A stretch of 32,867 nucleotides of DNA from positions 1-32,867 of the forward strand of contig JAGCFC010000065.1 in the NCBI GenBank assembly GCA_017650325.1, read 5' to 3'. Made by a program: the position numbers and the translations under genes. Shown here one piece after another: positions 1-10,932 of the stretch. Under the pieces are notes generated by a model. That model was not told the DNA's origin, searched no databases, and saw nothing but the letters and a program-made list of their open reading frames with translations. The stretch is from Salinivirgaceae bacterium (GTDB lineage Bacteria > Bacteroidota > Bacteroidia > Bacteroidales > SZUA-534). The first letter of the stretch is position 1. Each line of letters starts with the position of its first letter.

Positions 1-3000
1 ATGACCATAAACTCCGACAGCACACGCTTCTATATTAACGGCGGCAGCGGTGCCAAAGGAAACTTCGGTGTTGACGGCCTTGAGGGCGACTCAAAAGATG
101 GTACTGGCAACGGCGGCTTTGCCGTTAGCGGCCGTGGCGGCACAAAAGGTAATGGCAACGGCAATCTATTTAATATCGACCTTGCAACTGATGCACAAAC
201 ACTCAACGGAGTAAACCGCATCTACTGGTATCCCGAGAGTAACGCCTTTATGGCTGGTAATCTGCTAGTTGAGCGTCCAGACGATGTGGGTGAAAACTCA
301 TTTAACGCTGGATACCAGAACAAAGCAAAAGGCAAGTGGTCGCAGGCGTTTGGTTTCAGATCGATAGCCACTGGTGAGACTTCAATAGCCATAGGTTACC
401 AAGCAATAGCCAGGGGCAAAAGTTCGTTCTCTTTCGGTAGAAATACAGATGCTGAAGGCGAAAATTCCGTGGCAATTGGATCGGGTGCTGTTACTGAACA
501 AGTAGCGAAAAACTCTGTGGCATTTGGTAATTCAGCATTTGCCAGAAATGAAGGTAGCTTTGCTTTTGGAAAAGAAGCGTATTCATCAGGCAAGCATAGT
601 TTCGCTTTTGGTGGAGGTGGTGATGGCACTATTAACGTTTTTTTTGAGTCCATCCCTGGACCGAGTGCATCGGGCGACTATTCATACGCCTTTGGCCCGG
701 GTGCCCAAGCCACACAAAAAGGAGCAATAGCTATAGGTTTTAAGGCAGAAGCCACAGGGGAATTCTCCACTGCAATTGGTAATGCCAAAGCCAAAGGATA
801 TTATTCTATGGCAGTTGGTATTGGAACCATAGCAAATGCAGGTGAGTTTGCCATTGGTAGCTATAATACGGATTATAATCCATCTCCTGGACCAGATACC
901 AAGTACAGGCAGTTTGTTATTGGTAGTGGTTCTGGTGATGACCATAGAGCCGATGCGCTTGTTGTTTATACGAACGGTGACACAGAAATAAATGGCGATT
1001 TAAAAGCCGAAGTGACAACACTAGACCGTTTGATAGTTAAAGATGATGGAGGAGAAAACTATGGAAATGGATATGGAGTAGGTTCATCATTAATTCCATG
1101 TACCGTTTTTTCCGAAAGTTATGATTTGGGACGTGATCATGCTCGATGGGGAAATGTTTATGCGTACAATATTAACGCCAATGGTACTGTAACCATAAGC
1201 GGTAATCTTACTGTTTCGGGCAAAGTGGCTTCCGCATTAAAGCCTAATGCAACAGGTCTTAATTTGGGCGACTCTGACAATCGTTGGGGTAGCATTTATG
1301 CGAATACTATCAATACTACTGGACAGGCAACCGTGGGCATCCTTTCAACAACCGGCGCAGCAACCGTTGGAAGCCTTTCAACAACTGGTACAATATCGGG
1401 TGGTGCTATATCTGGAACAAGCCTTTCAACAAGCGGTAATCTTACTGTTTCGGGCAAAGTGGCTTCCACATTATTGCCCAATACATCCACCCTTAATTTG
1501 GGTAACTCCAACAATCGTTGGAATGGAGTGTATTCTACCTCACTCAACACCAACACAATCTCTGCATCAACCAATACCATTGCAGGCGAGTTTAGTTCAA
1601 CGGGTAAAGATTATGGAACTTCAGGTTTTTATTTTGGAGGGACAAAATATACCAACACTATAGCAAACGCCATATATGCAGATGCAAGTAGTGCTGGCAC
1701 ATCAAGTGCCGGTGCCACTAATTTCGGCATATTTGCATACGCTTCGGGCAATGGCGCTTCATCGAGTTATAAGAATAACAATTACGCGATATATGCAAAA
1801 GCCAGTGGAAGTAATGCCAACAACTATGCCGGATATTTCGACGGTGCAGTAACCATTACCGGTGCCACAACACTATCTGGCGCCATAACAGTAGGCGGTA
1901 GTATTACACCAACCTCTAGTTATAATTTAGGTGGAACCGACAACCGCTGGTATTGTGTCTATTCGTCAACTATCAACACCAGTGGAAAAGCAACCGTTGG
2001 AAGTCTTTCAACATCTGGCACAGCAAGCGTGGGTAGCCTCTCAACAAGCGGCACAATATCGGGCGGTGCTATATCTGGTACAAGCCTTCTTACAACAGGC
2101 ACAGCAAGCGTTGGTAGCCTTTCAGCATCAGGCGAAATATCAGGCGGCGCAATATCAGGTTCAAGCCTCTCAACAACCGGAAATCTGTCGGTTTCGGGCA
2201 AGGTGACAACATCATTGAAGCCGAATTCAAGCCTTAATTTGGGTGGTACAGGTACAAACGAACGTTGGAATTATGTTTATACTTCATATATCAATGCCAG
2301 CAATTCAGCAACCGTAGGCAGCCTCTCAACAAGCGGCACAATATCGGGCGGTGCTATATCTGGTACAAGCCTTTCTACAAGCGGTAATCTTTCTGTTTCT
2401 GGCAAAGTGGCATCAACTCTGAAACCATCTGCTGCAAGCTATAATTTGGGTGGTACAGGTACAAACGAACGTTGGAAATATGTTTATGCACAAATTGGTA
2501 ATTATAGTACAAGTGCTGAAACCACATCCTTAACTGTGACTAATACTAGTTCCAGCAATTATACTAATGGCATATCTGCCTCAGCTTCCTATGGCTATAG
2601 AGTTTCTACAGGAGTATCAGGTATCGCTAACTCAGCAACAGGAACTAACATTGGTGTATATGGAGAAGCTGACGAACAAAGAAGTGACGGAACCCATTAC
2701 GGAGTGAAAGGATACGCTAATGGGGCTTCGGAAAATTATGCGATATATGGTGAGGTAGAAGAAAGCAATTATTATACAAATTATGCCGTTTGGGCCGAGG
2801 GGCCTGCAGGTGGTACAACGTCTTGGTGGAATAGCAGCGATGCACGTTTGAAAAAAGATGTTCAGACACTCAACGGAGCGCTGGACAAGGTGCTTAAACT
2901 GCGCGGCGTAACCTACTACTGGAAGAGTAACGAGGAACGTGGCGATAGCATCTACCTCCATTTGGATAACAAAAAGCACATTGGTGTTATTGCCCAAGAA

Positions 3001-3210
3001 TTGGAACAAGAATTCCCCGAATTAGTAAACACCGGCAGAGGCGGCTACAAAACAGTTGAGTATGCAACACTTGCACCAGTCCTCATCGAGGCCATCAAAG
3101 AGCTGAAAGCCGAAAAAGACGAGCTGAAAGCCGAGAAGGATGCCCTCGAGGCGAAGGTTGAGAAACTGGAGGCACAAATGCAGGAGATATTGGAGAAATT
3201 AGGAAAATAA
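1..3210 (+). CDS. YadA-head-like / tail-fibre-like surface protein with C-terminal Peptidase_S74 chaperone (5' partial)
   Basis: The reading frame is open from base 1 and shows no signal peptide, so the gene very likely begins upstream and the first Met is not trusted. Residues 15-55 are Gly-rich. Residues about 95-290 carry AIGxxAxAxGxxSxAxG-type repeats like the heads of YadA trimeric adhesins. Six [LY][ND]LGx(n)RWxxVY units start near residues 375, 420, 498, 641, 745 and 814, separated by Ser/Thr/Gly-rich ISGGAISG and GNLTVSGKVAS segments, a pattern seen in phage tail fibres and bacterial S74 proteins. The C-terminus is a Peptidase_S74 (intramolecular chaperone of endosialidase type) domain with SSDARLKKDV, whose S946 and K951 have the spacing of the self-cleaving Ser-Lys dyad. 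It ends in a heptad-like Glu/Lys coiled coil (about 1030-1069). The family trimerises and cleaves itself. No membrane anchor is visible, so its export and attachment are unknown. Confidence 0.85.
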   Translation: MTINSDSTRFYINGGSGAKGNFGVDGLEGDSKDGTGNGGFAVSGRGGTKGNGNGNLFNIDLATDAQTLNGVNRIYWYPESNAFMAGNLLVERPDDVGENSFNAGYQNKAKGKWSQAFGFRSIATGETSIAIGYQAIARGKSSFSFGRNTDAEGENSVAIGSGAVTEQVAKNSVAFGNSAFARNEGSFAFGKEAYSSGKHSFAFGGGGDGTINVFFESIPGPSASGDYSYAFGPGAQATQKGAIAIGFKAEATGEFSTAIGNAKAKGYYSMAVGIGTIANAGEFAIGSYNTDYNPSPGPDTKYRQFVIGSGSGDDHRADALVVYTNGDTEINGDLKAEVTTLDRLIVKDDGGENYGNGYGVGSSLIPCTVFSESYDLGRDHARWGNVYAYNINANGTVTISGNLTVSGKVASALKPNATGLNLGDSDNRWGSIYANTINTTGQATVGILSTTGAATVGSLSTTGTISGGAISGTSLSTSGNLTVSGKVASTLLPNTSTLNLGNSNNRWNGVYSTSLNTNTISASTNTIAGEFSSTGKDYGTSGFYFGGTKYTNTIANAIYADASSAGTSSAGATNFGIFAYASGNGASSSYKNNNYAIYAKASGSNANNYAGYFDGAVTITGATTLSGAITVGGSITPTSSYNLGGTDNRWYCVYSSTINTSGKATVGSLSTSGTASVGSLSTSGTISGGAISGTSLLTTGTASVGSLSASGEISGGAISGSSLSTTGNLSVSGKVTTSLKPNSSLNLGGTGTNERWNYVYTSYINASNSATVGSLSTSGTISGGAISGTSLSTSGNLSVSGKVASTLKPSAASYNLGGTGTNERWKYVYAQIGNYSTSAETTSLTVTNTSSSNYTNGISASASYGYRVSTGVSGIANSATGTNIGVYGEADEQRSDGTHYGVKGYANGASENYAIYGEVEESNYYTNYAVWAEGPAGGTTSWWNSSDARLKKDVQTLNGALDKVLKLRGVTYYWKSNEERGDSIYLHLDNKKHIGVIAQELEQEFPELVNTGRGGYKTVEYATLAPVLIEAIKELKAEKDELKAEKDALEAKVEKLEAQMQEILEKLGK

Positions 3211-6460: not shown

Positions 6461-6488
6461 ATGCCCAAATGCGAAGGGGGATTTTATT

Positions 6489-6624
6489 GGGGGGTGGGGG
6501 TTGGGTGTTGGGGGTTGGGTGTTGGGGATTGGGTGTTGGTTTTTACCATAGATGGTTGCGTTATTCGGACGTGGCAGTGCCGCGGTTTTGTTTTTGGTGT
6601 TGGGTATTGGGGGTTGGGTGTTGG
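6489..6624. repeat. G-rich low-complexity tracts (GGGTGTTGGG-type)
   Basis: Runs of three to six G separated by TT, T, ATT or TGTT occupy 6489-6540 and again 6598-6624. The + strand meets the G3+N1-7 pattern for a G-quadruplex. A weaker relative lies after metX (10704-10735). Confidence 0.7.
6560..6584. repeat. Imperfect palindromic element, copy A
   Basis: GGACGTGGCA-G-TGCCGCG forms a near-perfect hairpin. The same 25 bases, starting GTTATTCGGACG, recur at 6654-6678. Confidence 0.7.
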
Positions 6625-6653
6625 TGCAATTTGTTTTGATGACGGACAATTAT

Positions 6654-6685
6654 GTTATTCGGACGTGGCAGTGCCGCGTCCCTAC
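6654..6685. repeat. Imperfect palindromic element, copy B
   Basis: This is the same sequence as 6560-6584 with a longer right arm, GGACGTGGCA-G-TGCCGCGTCC (10-bp stem with one wobble), followed by CTAC. Confidence 0.75.
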
Positions 6686-6764
6686 TAATCACTAACCATT
6701 AATCATTCCCCCTTTTGCCTTATGCCTTGTAACTAATCATTAACCATTCCCCCTCCCCCTTACG

Positions 6765-6835: not shown

Positions 6836-6843
6836 TACCTTTG
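6836..6843 (+). promoter_or_regulatory. -7 element of the metK operon
   Basis: TACCTTTG is a perfect TAnnTTTG match, followed by CGCCCGTT. The upstream -33 region is only T-rich. Transcription from here would begin just before the riboswitch stem. Confidence 0.65.
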
Positions 6844-6849
6844 CGCCCG

Positions 6850-6898
6850 TTGTGGAAAGATTTGAGTTGATTGCAACCACAGAAAAAAATGCTAAAGC
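6850..6898 (+). promoter_or_regulatory. SAM-II riboswitch aptamer
   Basis: A short stem TGTGG (6851-6855) pairs with CCACA (6877-6881). The loop contains GATTTGAGTTGATTGCA (6859-6875), matching the SAM-II consensus GAUUU-A-(7)-UUGCA with the same 17-base length. An A-rich stretch and GCTAAAGC (6891-6898) follow, the conserved pseudoknot partner region. Established knowledge: SAM-II binds S-adenosylmethionine and represses methionine genes, chiefly in alphaproteobacteria, with some Bacteroidetes cases. Here it precedes metK and metX, which fits. The pseudoknot was judged by motif order and spacing, not folded by program. Confidence 0.88.
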
Positions 6899-6966
6899 AC
6901 GCTTTTCCCCTGCATTCATATTCAATTATTACCATAACGAGGATTGTTGCAATCCGCACAATATGA
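6889..6966 (+). CDS. Possible 25-residue leader ORF overlapping the riboswitch core
   Basis: An ATG inside the SAM-II core (AAATGCTAAAG) opens a 25-codon frame whose product starts MLKHAFPLHSYS and ends ITITRIVAIRTI, rich in Ile and Thr. It stops 28 bases before metK. A hairpin, GGATTG-TTG-CAATCC (6941-6955), lies in its last third. If SAM binding hides the core, it would also hide this start codon. There is no homology evidence; it could be a chance frame. Confidence 0.35.
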   Translation: MLKHAFPLHSYSIITITRIVAIRTI

Positions 6967-6994
6967 CGTTTAAAACATTAAATATTATTTAGTT

Positions 6995-8248
6995 ATGGGT
7001 TACTTATTTACTTCAGAGTCGGTTTCAGAGGGACATCCCGACAAGGTTGCCGACCAAATTTCCGACGCCATTGTCGACCGTTTTCTGGCTTTCGATCCCA
7101 AATCGAAAGTGGCTTGCGAGACTCTTGTAACAACCGGACAGGTGGTTCTGGCAGGCGAGGTTCGCAGCGATGCTTACATTGATGTTCAAGAAGTTGCGCG
7201 CCGCGTCATCAACCGTATTGGCTACACCAAAGGCGAATACCGCTTCGAGGGCGACTCGTGCGGCGTTCTGTCGGCTATTCACGAGCAGTCGGCCGACATT
7301 AACCGTGGTGTTGAGCGCGCCAACCATATGGATCAGGGTGCCGGCGACCAGGGAATGATGTTCGGTTACGCTTGCTCGGAGACCGACAACTATATGCCGC
7401 TGCCGCTCGAACTGGCTCACAGCCTGCTTATTGAGCTGGCCGCCATCCGTCGCGAGGGCAAGGTGATGACCTATCTGCGCCCCGACGCAAAAAGCCAGGT
7501 CACCATTGAATATGACGACAACAACCAGCCTAAACGCATCGACACCATTGTGGTATCGACACAGCACGATGAGTTCGACGCCGATGAGCCAATGCTGGCA
7601 AAAATCAAACAGGATGTGAAGGAGATACTGATTCCGCGCACCGTGGCTAAACTGCCCGAGCGTGTGCAGAAACTGTTCGACGGCACATTCACCCTTCATG
7701 TAAACCCAACCGGCAAGTTTGTCATTGGCGGACCTCACGGCGACACCGGCTTGACCGGCCGCAAGATTATTGTGGACACCTACGGAGGCCGCGGCGCACA
7801 CGGCGGTGGCGCTTTCTCGGGCAAAGACCCATCGAAGGTTGACCGTTCGGCAGCTTACGCAGCACGCCATATTGCCAAGAACATGGTTGCCGCAGGTGTG
7901 GCATCCGAAATGCTGGTGCAGGTGGCCTACGCCATTGGCGTGGCAAAACCGGTGGGTGTGTTTGTCAATACCTATGGCACATCGAAAGTCAAACTGTCGG
8001 ATGGCGAGATTGCCAAAAAGGTAGCCGAGATTTTCGACCTCCGTCCGGCCGCCATCGAAGACCGCCTGAAACTGCGCAACCCAATCTACGAGGAGACAGC
8101 ATCGTACGGTCACATGGGACGCGAGCCCAAAACCGTGAAGAAAGTGTTCGAATCGCCGTACATGGGTCGCCGCGAACTGACTGTGGAGCTCTTCACATGG
8201 GAGAAGCTCGACTATGTTGATGAAATTAAAAACGCTTTTAATTTGTAA
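6995..8248 (+). CDS. metK: S-adenosylmethionine synthetase (417 aa)
   Basis: This cytosolic enzyme makes SAM from methionine and ATP, releasing phosphate and pyrophosphate; it needs Mg2+ and K+. The family signatures are complete: GHPDK (13-17), the ATP signature GAGDQG (115-120), the P-loop-like GGGAFSGKD (270-278) followed by [17 protein letters not shown], and the C-terminal domain to residue 417. The enzyme is longer than E. coli MetK (384 aa), as seen in Bacteroidetes. The start is clear because the N-terminus [17 protein letters not shown] aligns with the family. It is first in an operon with the esterase-like lipoprotein gene (3 bases downstream) and metX. The SAM-II riboswitch in the 150-base leader implies repression by its own product. 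Confidence 0.97.
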
Positions 8249-8251
8249 AAA

Positions 8252-9613
8252 ATGAAACGTGTAATCACAGCGTTATCGGCAGTTATATTGCTGATTTCAA
8301 CAATATTAACATCTTGTCATAACGGTTCGAGAGACTCTTTCACGGCCAATGTCGAAAAACGTGTCTGCGTGGCCGACACCACAATCCATTATTCGGTTTA
8401 CGCACCGCAGTCCGACGGTCAGAAAATGCCAACCATCATCTTCTTCGACCCTCATGCACAAGGACAAATACCGGTTGAGGCCTACGCCAAGCTGGCTGCC
8501 GATTACAAATACATTCTCATCGGAAGCAACGACCTCCAAAACGGACAGTCGGCATCCGAAACCGAGAAAATTGTGCTCGCTCTTATCAACGAGGTTGAAA
8601 CCCAATACCCGTCCGACGCCAGCCGGATCTATCTTTCGGGCTTTTCGGGCGGCGCAAAGGTGGCTATGATGTATGGTATCAACATTCCCGAGATAAAAGG
8701 CGTTGTTGCCTGCGGAGGCAGCATTATTCCTAATATCAAACCCGACTCAACGTTCTGCTTTGTGGGCATGGTCGGAAACAAGGATTTCAACTACCTCGAC
8801 ATGCAGCAGACCCTGGCCATGTTCAACAAAATGGGCATTCCGTTCACATCGCTCACCTTCGACGGAAAACATGAGTGGCCGTCGGCTGTTGAGTATGAAA
8901 ACGCCTTTAAAGCGTTGGAGGTCAACGCTATGCGCACAGGTTTCGCTCCGTCAAACGTCGATTGGCTCCGCTCGGTTTACAAATCGCTTAGCGACTCGGC
9001 CAACAACAGCATGGCTCTGGGCGAGTATGTTAAAGGCGCCGAACTGATTGGTCGCATCCAAGGCTGGTTCGGTTCGGTCGACAACGATATGCGCTTGTCG
9101 GCTTTCCTCAACAACTTGAGCAACAACCCAATGTATCACAGCCAGTTGGAGAAGATTAAAGAGCTGGCCGAGAAGGAAGTGTCGCTTAGAGGACAGTTCA
9201 TCGGTTCGATTGAGAATCGCGATATCGAATGGTGGAAAACCGAGATTGAGAACTTTGAAAAGAGCATTGCCAGCCGCGACGAGTACGTGAGCCTGACCAG
9301 CCAGCGCCTTATGGCTTACCTGAGCATGGTGTCGTTCACACTGATTAACAGCGACATTATGGGCAACCGTCAGGAGAATGCGTTCAAAAAACTGCAGATA
9401 TACAAAATGGTGGACCCCGACAATGTCGATGTCTATCTGATGTACGCCCGCTACTACCTAATGACCGGCGACAAGCAGAAAATGGTTGAGAGCTACCGCG
9501 AGGCTGTTGCCAAAGGGTTCAAAAATGCCGACCAGTACGCATCGGACCCGACTTGGAAACTGCTCCTGTCGCAACCTGAAATCAAAGCTGAACTGGCGGG
9601 AAATCCGCAATAG
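8252..9613 (+). CDS. Esterase-like (alpha/beta hydrolase) lipoprotein with helical C-terminal region
   Basis: The 453-residue product has an SPII signal ending LTSC (lipidated C22), so it is expected on the outer or inner membrane. Residues about 40-210 look like an alpha/beta hydrolase: nucleophile elbow GFSGG (S132), a likely acid in VGNKDFNY (D178), and a histidine in DGKHEWPS (H207). These are the order and spacing of the dienelactone hydrolase/feruloyl-esterase-like fold. Residues 211-453 are helical and near the end resemble TPR units (VDVYLMYARYYLMTGDKQKMVESYREAV). The substrate is unknown. It starts 3 bases after the metK stop and 21 bases before metX, so it shares the SAM-controlled transcript, although nothing in the sequence ties it to methionine chemistry. 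Confidence 0.85.
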   Translation: MKRVITALSAVILLISTILTSCHNGSRDSFTANVEKRVCVADTTIHYSVYAPQSDGQKMPTIIFFDPHAQGQIPVEAYAKLAADYKYILIGSNDLQNGQSASETEKIVLALINEVETQYPSDASRIYLSGFSGGAKVAMMYGINIPEIKGVVACGGSIIPNIKPDSTFCFVGMVGNKDFNYLDMQQTLAMFNKMGIPFTSLTFDGKHEWPSAVEYENAFKALEVNAMRTGFAPSNVDWLRSVYKSLSDSANNSMALGEYVKGAELIGRIQGWFGSVDNDMRLSAFLNNLSNNPMYHSQLEKIKELAEKEVSLRGQFIGSIENRDIEWWKTEIENFEKSIASRDEYVSLTSQRLMAYLSMVSFTLINSDIMGNRQENAFKKLQIYKMVDPDNVDVYLMYARYYLMTGDKQKMVESYREAVAKGFKNADQYASDPTWKLLLSQPEIKAELAGNPQ

Positions 9614-9634: not shown

Positions 9635-10702
9635 ATGCAAATTCAAGATAAATACCTGTCGCACGACGGCGGCAAAAGCGTGAAATATTACCATTACAGC
9701 GAGGGGCTCGACCTTGAATGCGGCCAGCACCTTGCCGAGCTCGACATTGCCTATGTAACCTACGGCACCATAAACGCCGACCAGAGCAATGTGGTGTGGA
9801 TGTGCCACGCCTACACTGCCAACGCCGACCCCATCGACTGGTGGCCGGGAATGGTGGGCGAGGGCAAGTTCTTCGACCCGGCGAAATATTTTATCGTCTG
9901 CGCCAACATTCTGGGTTCGTGCTACGGCACAACAGGCCCGCTGAGCATCAATCCGGCAACCGGCAAGCCCTATTACCGCGATTTCCCGCTCATCACTGTC
10001 CGCGACCAGGTGAAATGCCATGAGATTCTGCGCAAGCACCTCGGTATCAATTCCATTGAGATAATCCTCGGCTGTTCGATTGGCGGACATCAGGCCATTG
10101 AGTGGGCCATCAGCAACCCGCCGCTCATCAAAAACGCCTTTTTTGTGGCCACCACAGCGGTCAACACTCCATGGGTGTCGGCGTTCAACGAGGCGCAGCG
10201 TATGGCTATCGAGGCCGACCAGACCTTCTACGACGACAATCCGAACGGCGGCGAGCTGGGACTGAAATCGGCACGCGCAATGGCTCTCATCAGCTACCGC
10301 AACCGCGAAACGTTTAACCGCACACAGGCCGAAGACCCTAACGATTTGGACAAGCTCGACCACTTCCGTGTAAGCTCGTATCAAGTACATCAAGGCAACA
10401 AGCTGGCCGACCGCTTCAACGCATACTCTTACTACACGCTGTCGAAGGCGCTCGACTCACACAATGTCGGACGCGGCCGCGACGGTTTCCTTGCCGCTTT
10501 GGGGCGCATCACGGCGCACACGCTTGTCATCGGCATCGACACCGACATTCTGTTCCCTGTTGAGGACCAGCTGATTATCCACAAGGGCATCAAGGGCAGC
10601 GTGCTGCGTATTCTGGCCTCGGTTTACGGCCACGACGGCTTCCTGCTTGAGTTCGAGAAACAGAGCAAGATTTACACGCAGTTCCTGAACGGAGAGTTGT
10701 AA
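9635..10702 (+). CDS. metX: Homoserine O-acetyltransferase (355 aa)
   Basis: It acetylates L-homoserine with acetyl-CoA, the committed step to methionine by the MetX route. It is an alpha/beta hydrolase-fold enzyme. The catalytic triad is visible: S148 in GCSIGGHQAIEW, D304 in IGIDTDILFPVEDQ and H333 in SVYGHDGFLLE. N-terminal landmarks include AYVTYGTINADQSNVVW and NILGSCYGTTGPLSINPATG, the typical MetX region that contacts substrate. The nucleophile elbow reads GCSIGG rather than the more common GGSMGG. It is last in the metK operon and probably under the SAM-II riboswitch. Residues that separate acetyl- from succinyl-CoA use were not scored one by one; acetyl is inferred from overall MetX similarity. 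Confidence 0.92.
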   Translation: MQIQDKYLSHDGGKSVKYYHYSEGLDLECGQHLAELDIAYVTYGTINADQSNVVWMCHAYTANADPIDWWPGMVGEGKFFDPAKYFIVCANILGSCYGTTGPLSINPATGKPYYRDFPLITVRDQVKCHEILRKHLGINSIEIILGCSIGGHQAIEWAISNPPLIKNAFFVATTAVNTPWVSAFNEAQRMAIEADQTFYDDNPNGGELGLKSARAMALISYRNRETFNRTQAEDPNDLDKLDHFRVSSYQVHQGNKLADRFNAYSYYTLSKALDSHNVGRGRDGFLAALGRITAHTLVIGIDTDILFPVEDQLIIHKGIKGSVLRILASVYGHDGFLLEFEKQSKIYTQFLNGEL

Positions 10703-10846: not shown

Positions 10847-10895
10847 TTGCGTTCAATCGATTAGTCACTGAATATTTGGTTATTATTGTAGTTGA

Positions 10896-10932
10896 AACAG
10901 TTTTCAGATCCCCAACTGAAGACTGTTTTTTT
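10896..10932 (+). terminator. Terminator of the metK-metX operon
   Basis: A 12-bp stem (AACAGTTTTCAG with CTGAAGACTGTT, one wobble, loop ATCCCCAA) runs into eight T residues. Confidence 0.9.

Follow-up and report, generated by a model that had tools for sequence, protein, structure and literature searches.

The metK gene of a Salinivirgaceae bacterium is preceded by a SAM-II aptamer and by a leader in which one short strand can pair either with the aptamer or with the start codon. We consider it probable, from sequence comparison and modelled folds, that this riboswitch works as a translational OFF switch, in which strand exchange covers the metK start codon when SAM is plentiful. This expression platform is the addition of the present study; the earlier note on this DNA proposed none. 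Coordinates refer to the window, i.e., the whole stretch of 32,867 nucleotides that was analysed, and the leader elements and genes of the metK region lie on its forward (+) strand.

The SAM-II aptamer ahead of metK

In a cmscan search of the whole window, SAM-II (RF01726) was the only match above any Rfam gathering score. The match, at 6846-6905, scores 63.7 bits where the gathering score is 44 (E 3.2e-10) and covers model positions 1-60 of 60. A score below threshold, which the earlier note had named as refuting, is thus not what was obtained, and by homology the SAM-II riboswitch that it had placed in the metK leader is borne out. The same note had described a 17-base loop in which GATTT is followed by A; a loop of that length is present (GATTTGAGTTGATTGCA), but the base that follows GATTT is G. 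In the aptamer stem P1, UGUGG (6851-6855) pairs with CCACA (6877-6881), and the cmscan alignment marks no non-standard pair. The pseudoknot, between the loop and the strand after GCUAA, was assessed over 129 of 132 related leaders that could be parsed, where its best column pair was paired in 65% against 47% expected (z 6.2). In the genus of the window, only 2 of the 4 variable pairs form in register by our reading of the alignment rows (3 if a U is bulged), which is a weak point. From its sequence we infer that the window's aptamer binds SAM. Searching the genome (an assembly 92% complete), no second SAM-II match was found. Most of the class-level loci L086-L096 carry, by eye, an extra hairpin-like stretch between P1 and GCTAAA that brings the aptamer to about 105 nt.

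Just ahead of the aptamer there is a Bacteroidota -7 promoter element (TACCTTTG, 6836-6843), in agreement with the earlier reading of the sequence. The box is reported at -12 to -5 relative to the transcription start (PMC9723704), which places the expected start near 6848, at the aptamer's edge. The motif TAnnTTTG was found upstream of P1 in 110 of the 132 related leaders, compared to 5.0 ± 1.9 in mononucleotide shuffles. The DNA immediately 5' of this promoter (6471-6754) contains G-rich 14-nt repeats (GTTGGGTGTTGGG...), a 49-nt unit with GTTATTCGGACGTGGCAGTGCCGCG in two copies 94 nt apart, and ACTAANCATTAANCATTCCCCCT twice. Farther upstream, positions 1-3210 code for a protein of 1069 amino acids whose head repeats are of the YadA type and whose C terminus carries a Peptidase_S74 (endosialidase chaperone) domain.

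The occurrence of SAM-II in this phylum is not news, and the window's aptamer is a further member of a known family. SAM-II was reported in the Bacteroides group in 2005, together with the class itself and with Bacteroides thetaiotaomicron in the alignment (PMC1273637), it reappears for this group in a survey of 2007 (PMC2258182), and RF01726 was tabulated as 'Bacteroidetes, marine' by Weinberg in 2010 (PMC2864571). These reports rule out novelty on this point, and the surprise implied by the earlier note does not hold. The 'SAM-II long loops' of the last of these papers are the same aptamer family, all 60 positions of which the window fits, and we found no expression platform described for them there. 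In a dRNA-seq study of B. thetaiotaomicron the only riboswitches that we found named are those for TPP (PMC7366714). In the open-access literature, covered mostly at abstract level and without supplements, we found no description of how SAM-II represses in Bacteroidota or of strand exchange at a start codon.

Predicted alternative pairing at the metK start

The metK AUG (6995-6997) lies 89 nt beyond the end of the aptamer. Between them we located a candidate switching strand, CCAUAAC (6932-6938), with two potential partners. One is GUUGUGG (6849-6855), the 5' strand of the aptamer including that of P1, and the other, GUUAUGG (6992-6998), contains the metK AUG and is perfectly complementary to the strand over 7 bases; the two partners differ by a single base. 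When the whole leader is folded, the minimum-energy structure pairs GUUGUGG with CCAUAAC and leaves the AUG free, with an AUG pairing probability of 0.46 over the ensemble. To mimic the SAM-bound state the aptamer was deleted, the folding model being one without pseudoknots, and in that case CCAUAAC is predicted to pair with GUUAUGG and the pairing probability of the AUG reaches 0.99. The predicted cost of opening positions -12 to +13 goes from 4.21 to 8.14 kcal/mol when the aptamer is removed (8.28 with a slightly different cut); none of 25 leaders with shuffled middles and none of 25 with shuffled aptamers rose as much. In fold energy, the leader without aptamer does not stand out (z -0.25), and the whole leader is just a little low (z -1.83). 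Besides, the sequence and the folds contain a small hairpin, GGAUUG-UUG-CAAUCC (6941-6955), in which sits GTTGCAATC (6946-6954), a perfect 9-base complement of aptamer positions 6869-6877. Judging by the letters it is possible that this is a second anti-aptamer strand; by eye, the leaders of genus mates showed no such 9-base complement.

We have examined related leaders for the same behaviour, using throughout as statistic the rise, i.e., the opening cost without the aptamer less the opening cost of the whole leader. The first set comprised 51 of 67 leaders, after removal of 13 repeats from the same genus and of 3 leaders exceeding 140 nt. A second set started from 129 loci, of which 28 failed the aptamer pattern and 3 more showed no metK (those set aside were examined separately). 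Of the remaining 98, 81 were used as a held-out set, excluding 6 repeats more than 80% alike, 6 with a distance below 30 or above 160, two mis-cut leaders (L152 and L169) and L073, L082 and L095. Together they make 132 leaders of the order. Another 15 came from the 29 loci outside the order, minus 11 repeats, L073, L082 and L090, giving 147 in all. The mean rise was 1.51 kcal/mol in the first set (0.46 ± 0.19 with the middle shuffled, 0.26 ± 0.17 with the aptamer shuffled), 1.59 in the held-out set (0.37 ± 0.10 and 0.38 ± 0.12) and 2.28 outside the order (0.34 ± 0.25 and 0.55 ± 0.35). In the modelled folds, aptamer and start region are statistically coupled over the 147 leaders.

Over the 132 leaders, cognate middles gave a rise of 1.56 kcal/mol versus 0.69 ± 0.07 when middles were swapped between species (16 swaps each, Wilcoxon p 2e-7). 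Taking the two costs singly, the bound-state cost differed from the swaps with p 0.002, and the free-state cost was barely apart from them (p 0.047). In 15-nt windows the rise peaks at 1.2-1.3 when these are centred between -5 and +5 and is nearly nothing at -25 and +15, with a smaller rise of 0.35-0.56 at +30 to +40. The AUG pairing probability without the aptamer goes up by more than 0.1 in 58 of the 132 leaders and down by more than 0.1 in 13. The opposite sign (a rise below -0.3) was found in 6 of the 67 leaders of the first set and in 9 of the held-out 81. Among genus mates, 8 of 10 leaders rise by 2.9-3.3 kcal/mol, and two (L033 and L037) show no rise. In another genus mate, L027, the AUG is already covered in the minimum-energy fold when the aptamer is present, and the ensemble cost is still up by 2.9.

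One strand serving both partners over at least 4 bases was predicted in just 40 of the 132 leaders, and exact complements of the start (5-7 bases) were barely above chance, 7-mers being present in 14 of the 132 against 8.2 ± 2.5. A short word, UCCC, which can pair with the GGA of the aptamer and with AUGGGA, was found in the middles of 74 of the 132 leaders compared to 43.7 ± 4.4 in shuffles. It is present in 46 of the 61 leaders of genes starting with AUGGG versus 28 of the 71 others (p 4.5e-5, with descent ignored because the tree is poorly resolved). The MetK tree shows 27 changes of start class. For AUGGG against UCCC it gives only 3 independent pairs with branch support, a number too small for a decision either way.

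Gene context and distribution

The gene behind the leader, metK (6995-8248), is a methionine adenosyltransferase (TIGR01034, 516.7 bits, cut-off 309.4) with the three Pfam S-AdoMet synthetase domains. A nine-codon frame (MTFKTLNII*, 6963-6992) stops two bases ahead of its AUG, in a different frame. Downstream, 3 nt past metK, begins an alpha/beta-hydrolase-like gene of lipoprotein type (8252-9613), with weak Pfam and NCBIfam matches that are all below curated cut-offs, and 21 nt past this one a metX-like gene (9635-10702). By sequence, the product of the latter is a clear homologue of MetX, though under the curated equivalog cut-offs (TIGR01392, 340.7 bits, cut-off 500; a second curated profile, 316.7 bits, cut-off 331). 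The earlier note had metK and metX in one transcript closed by a terminator. The spacing of 3 and 21 nt permits the former, and the hydrolase-like and metX-like genes are possibly co-transcribed with metK, but metX did not follow metK in any of the 13 relatives' loci. As for the terminator, a pattern scan does find a hairpin with a T tail after the metX-like gene (10894-10929), but such patterns are there about as frequent as in shuffles (7 vs 5.6).

The 13 loci of relatives were 9 of the genus and 4 of the family, and in the 3.5 kb or so past metK that were searched neither the hydrolase nor MetX was found in any of them. A conserved metK-metX operon is ruled out by this comparison, and the metK-hydrolase-metX row was seen in this genome alone. 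We found metX in each of the other 10 genomes of the genus, in 9 of them on a different contig from the SAM-II metK locus, and the tenth (G005) gave no SAM-II match. In three such metX loci that were examined neither metK nor the hydrolase adjoined metX. Were metK translation the step under control, metX would be touched only via coupling or polarity.

Matches to RF01726 were found in at least 67 of 99 genomes of relatives, at least 156 of 218 of the order and at least 45 of 296 of the phylum; these are lower bounds because searches of more than 40 genomes use stricter filters. The first set gave 69 matches in 67 genomes, from which 67 loci were examined, leaving out one at a contig edge (G094) and a second match in G021 (32.7 bits). 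The order-level loci were 100 (20 + 80) among the matches listed, where 3 new matches were left out. The only match outside the class in the phylum search (G254, 31.9 bits) was below the cut-off and was left out. Among the distinct SAM-II loci examined, 194 of 195 precede metK: the 67 of the first set, 99 of the 100 at order level (L097-L196), all 27 at class level, and L073. The lone exception, L128 in genome G396, has SAM-II ahead of a metH-like frame, its likeness to metH judged from the word LDGAMGTMIQ. The same genome has a second SAM-II copy, ahead of metK. Genome G001 has two SAM-II metK loci (L026 and L037) in one assembly, and the leader of L037 is almost identical to that of G006; this may be contamination or it may be a genuine second copy. 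In the 67 leaders of the first set the AUG is located 44-332 nt beyond the aptamer.

Mechanism and alternatives

Bacteroidetes are described as lacking Shine-Dalgarno sites, with structure at the start as one factor in the tuning of initiation (PMC6847099), which would make covering of the AUG a natural lever. With no SAM, the 5' strand and the loop of the aptamer would pair with a downstream segment of the leader, here GUUGUGG (6849-6855) with CCAUAAC (6932-6938). The segment, held by the aptamer, would be kept off the metK start and metK would be translated. Upon SAM binding, P1 and the pseudoknot would lock the strands of the aptamer and release the segment, so that CCAUAAC could pair with GUUAUGG (6992-6998), cover the AUG and bring metK translation down. 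We infer from the modelled folds that the strand exchange is brought about by SAM and that control is exerted on translation.

Known switches resemble this scheme in part. The proteobacterial metX-type SAM-II (PMC10907184) shares the aptamer class and the expected OFF logic toward SAM, but its ribosome site lies within the P2 helix, whereas in the window the start is 89 nt off and the AUG would be covered by a strand outside the aptamer. In Sinorhizobium meliloti (PMC9373788) SAM-II acts on metA translation, 'at a distance' according to the title, and on metZ by termination. The metA switch, however, works via a Shine-Dalgarno site, and the genes are metA and metZ, not metK. The add switch of Vibrio vulnificus (PMC10907184) also opens or hides the start by alternative pairing with a sequester hairpin, but its ligand is adenine, its logic is ON and the ribosome site is covered too.

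Other explanations for these leaders have to be weighed. SAM might instead free a C-rich, G-poor segment of the leader as a loading site for Rho, with transcription stopping before or within metK (and metX). The composition of the leader middles (on average 22.7% C and 9.6% G) would fit, and termination of this kind would extend to metX as well, but it leaves unexplained that the rise peaks around the AUG, that cognate middles exceed swapped ones and that UCCC tracks the second codon, and we regard it as unlikely. Intrinsic termination, in which SAM binding would permit a terminator to form between aptamer and metK, commonly accompanies SAM-II in alpha- and beta-Proteobacteria (PMC2258182, section 9). 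Terminator-like hairpins appear in 7 of the 132 leaders against 1.5 ± 1.2 in shuffles (maximum 4 in 20), and it is possible that a few lineages terminate in this way. By the same pattern they are absent from 125 of the 132, and the scan of the window's own leader, which found none between aptamer and metK, rules out an intrinsic terminator there; this explanation is very improbable.

Direct occlusion, in which the 3' strand of the aptamer itself covers the ribosome site, is the textbook mechanism of the class (PMC10907184). It would require the ribosome site in the aptamer's 3' helix and the start close behind, and neither is found in the window. The distances given above, for the window and for the first set, argue against it, as does the lack of Shine-Dalgarno sites in the phylum (PMC6847099), and we give it hardly any weight. 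An AUG directly behind the aptamer was found in L168 (genome G444), and direct occlusion is possible in that lineage. It could also be argued that in this genus the aptamer has lost its function as a SAM switch and that the pairing of the leader is incidental. The few variable pseudoknot pairs in the genus point that way, but the aptamer core is kept ahead of metK in 194 of the 195 loci and neither shuffled nor swapped controls reproduced the signal, which makes such a loss highly improbable.

Strand exchange onto the metK start, which we prefer, may extend beyond this genus. As a tentative proposal, a little short of an even chance in our estimate, it would be a phylum-wide platform for mRNAs without Shine-Dalgarno sites, built on a strand shared by the P1/loop strand of SAM-II and the start codon. 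The metK start (AUGGG, GUUAUGG) would mimic that strand of the aptamer (GUGGAAA, GUUGUGG), with co-evolution of the leader and the second codon. The model predicts leader bases that change along with the second codon of metK. If true, it would provide a concrete answer to how SAM-II of Bacteroidota represses without Shine-Dalgarno sites.
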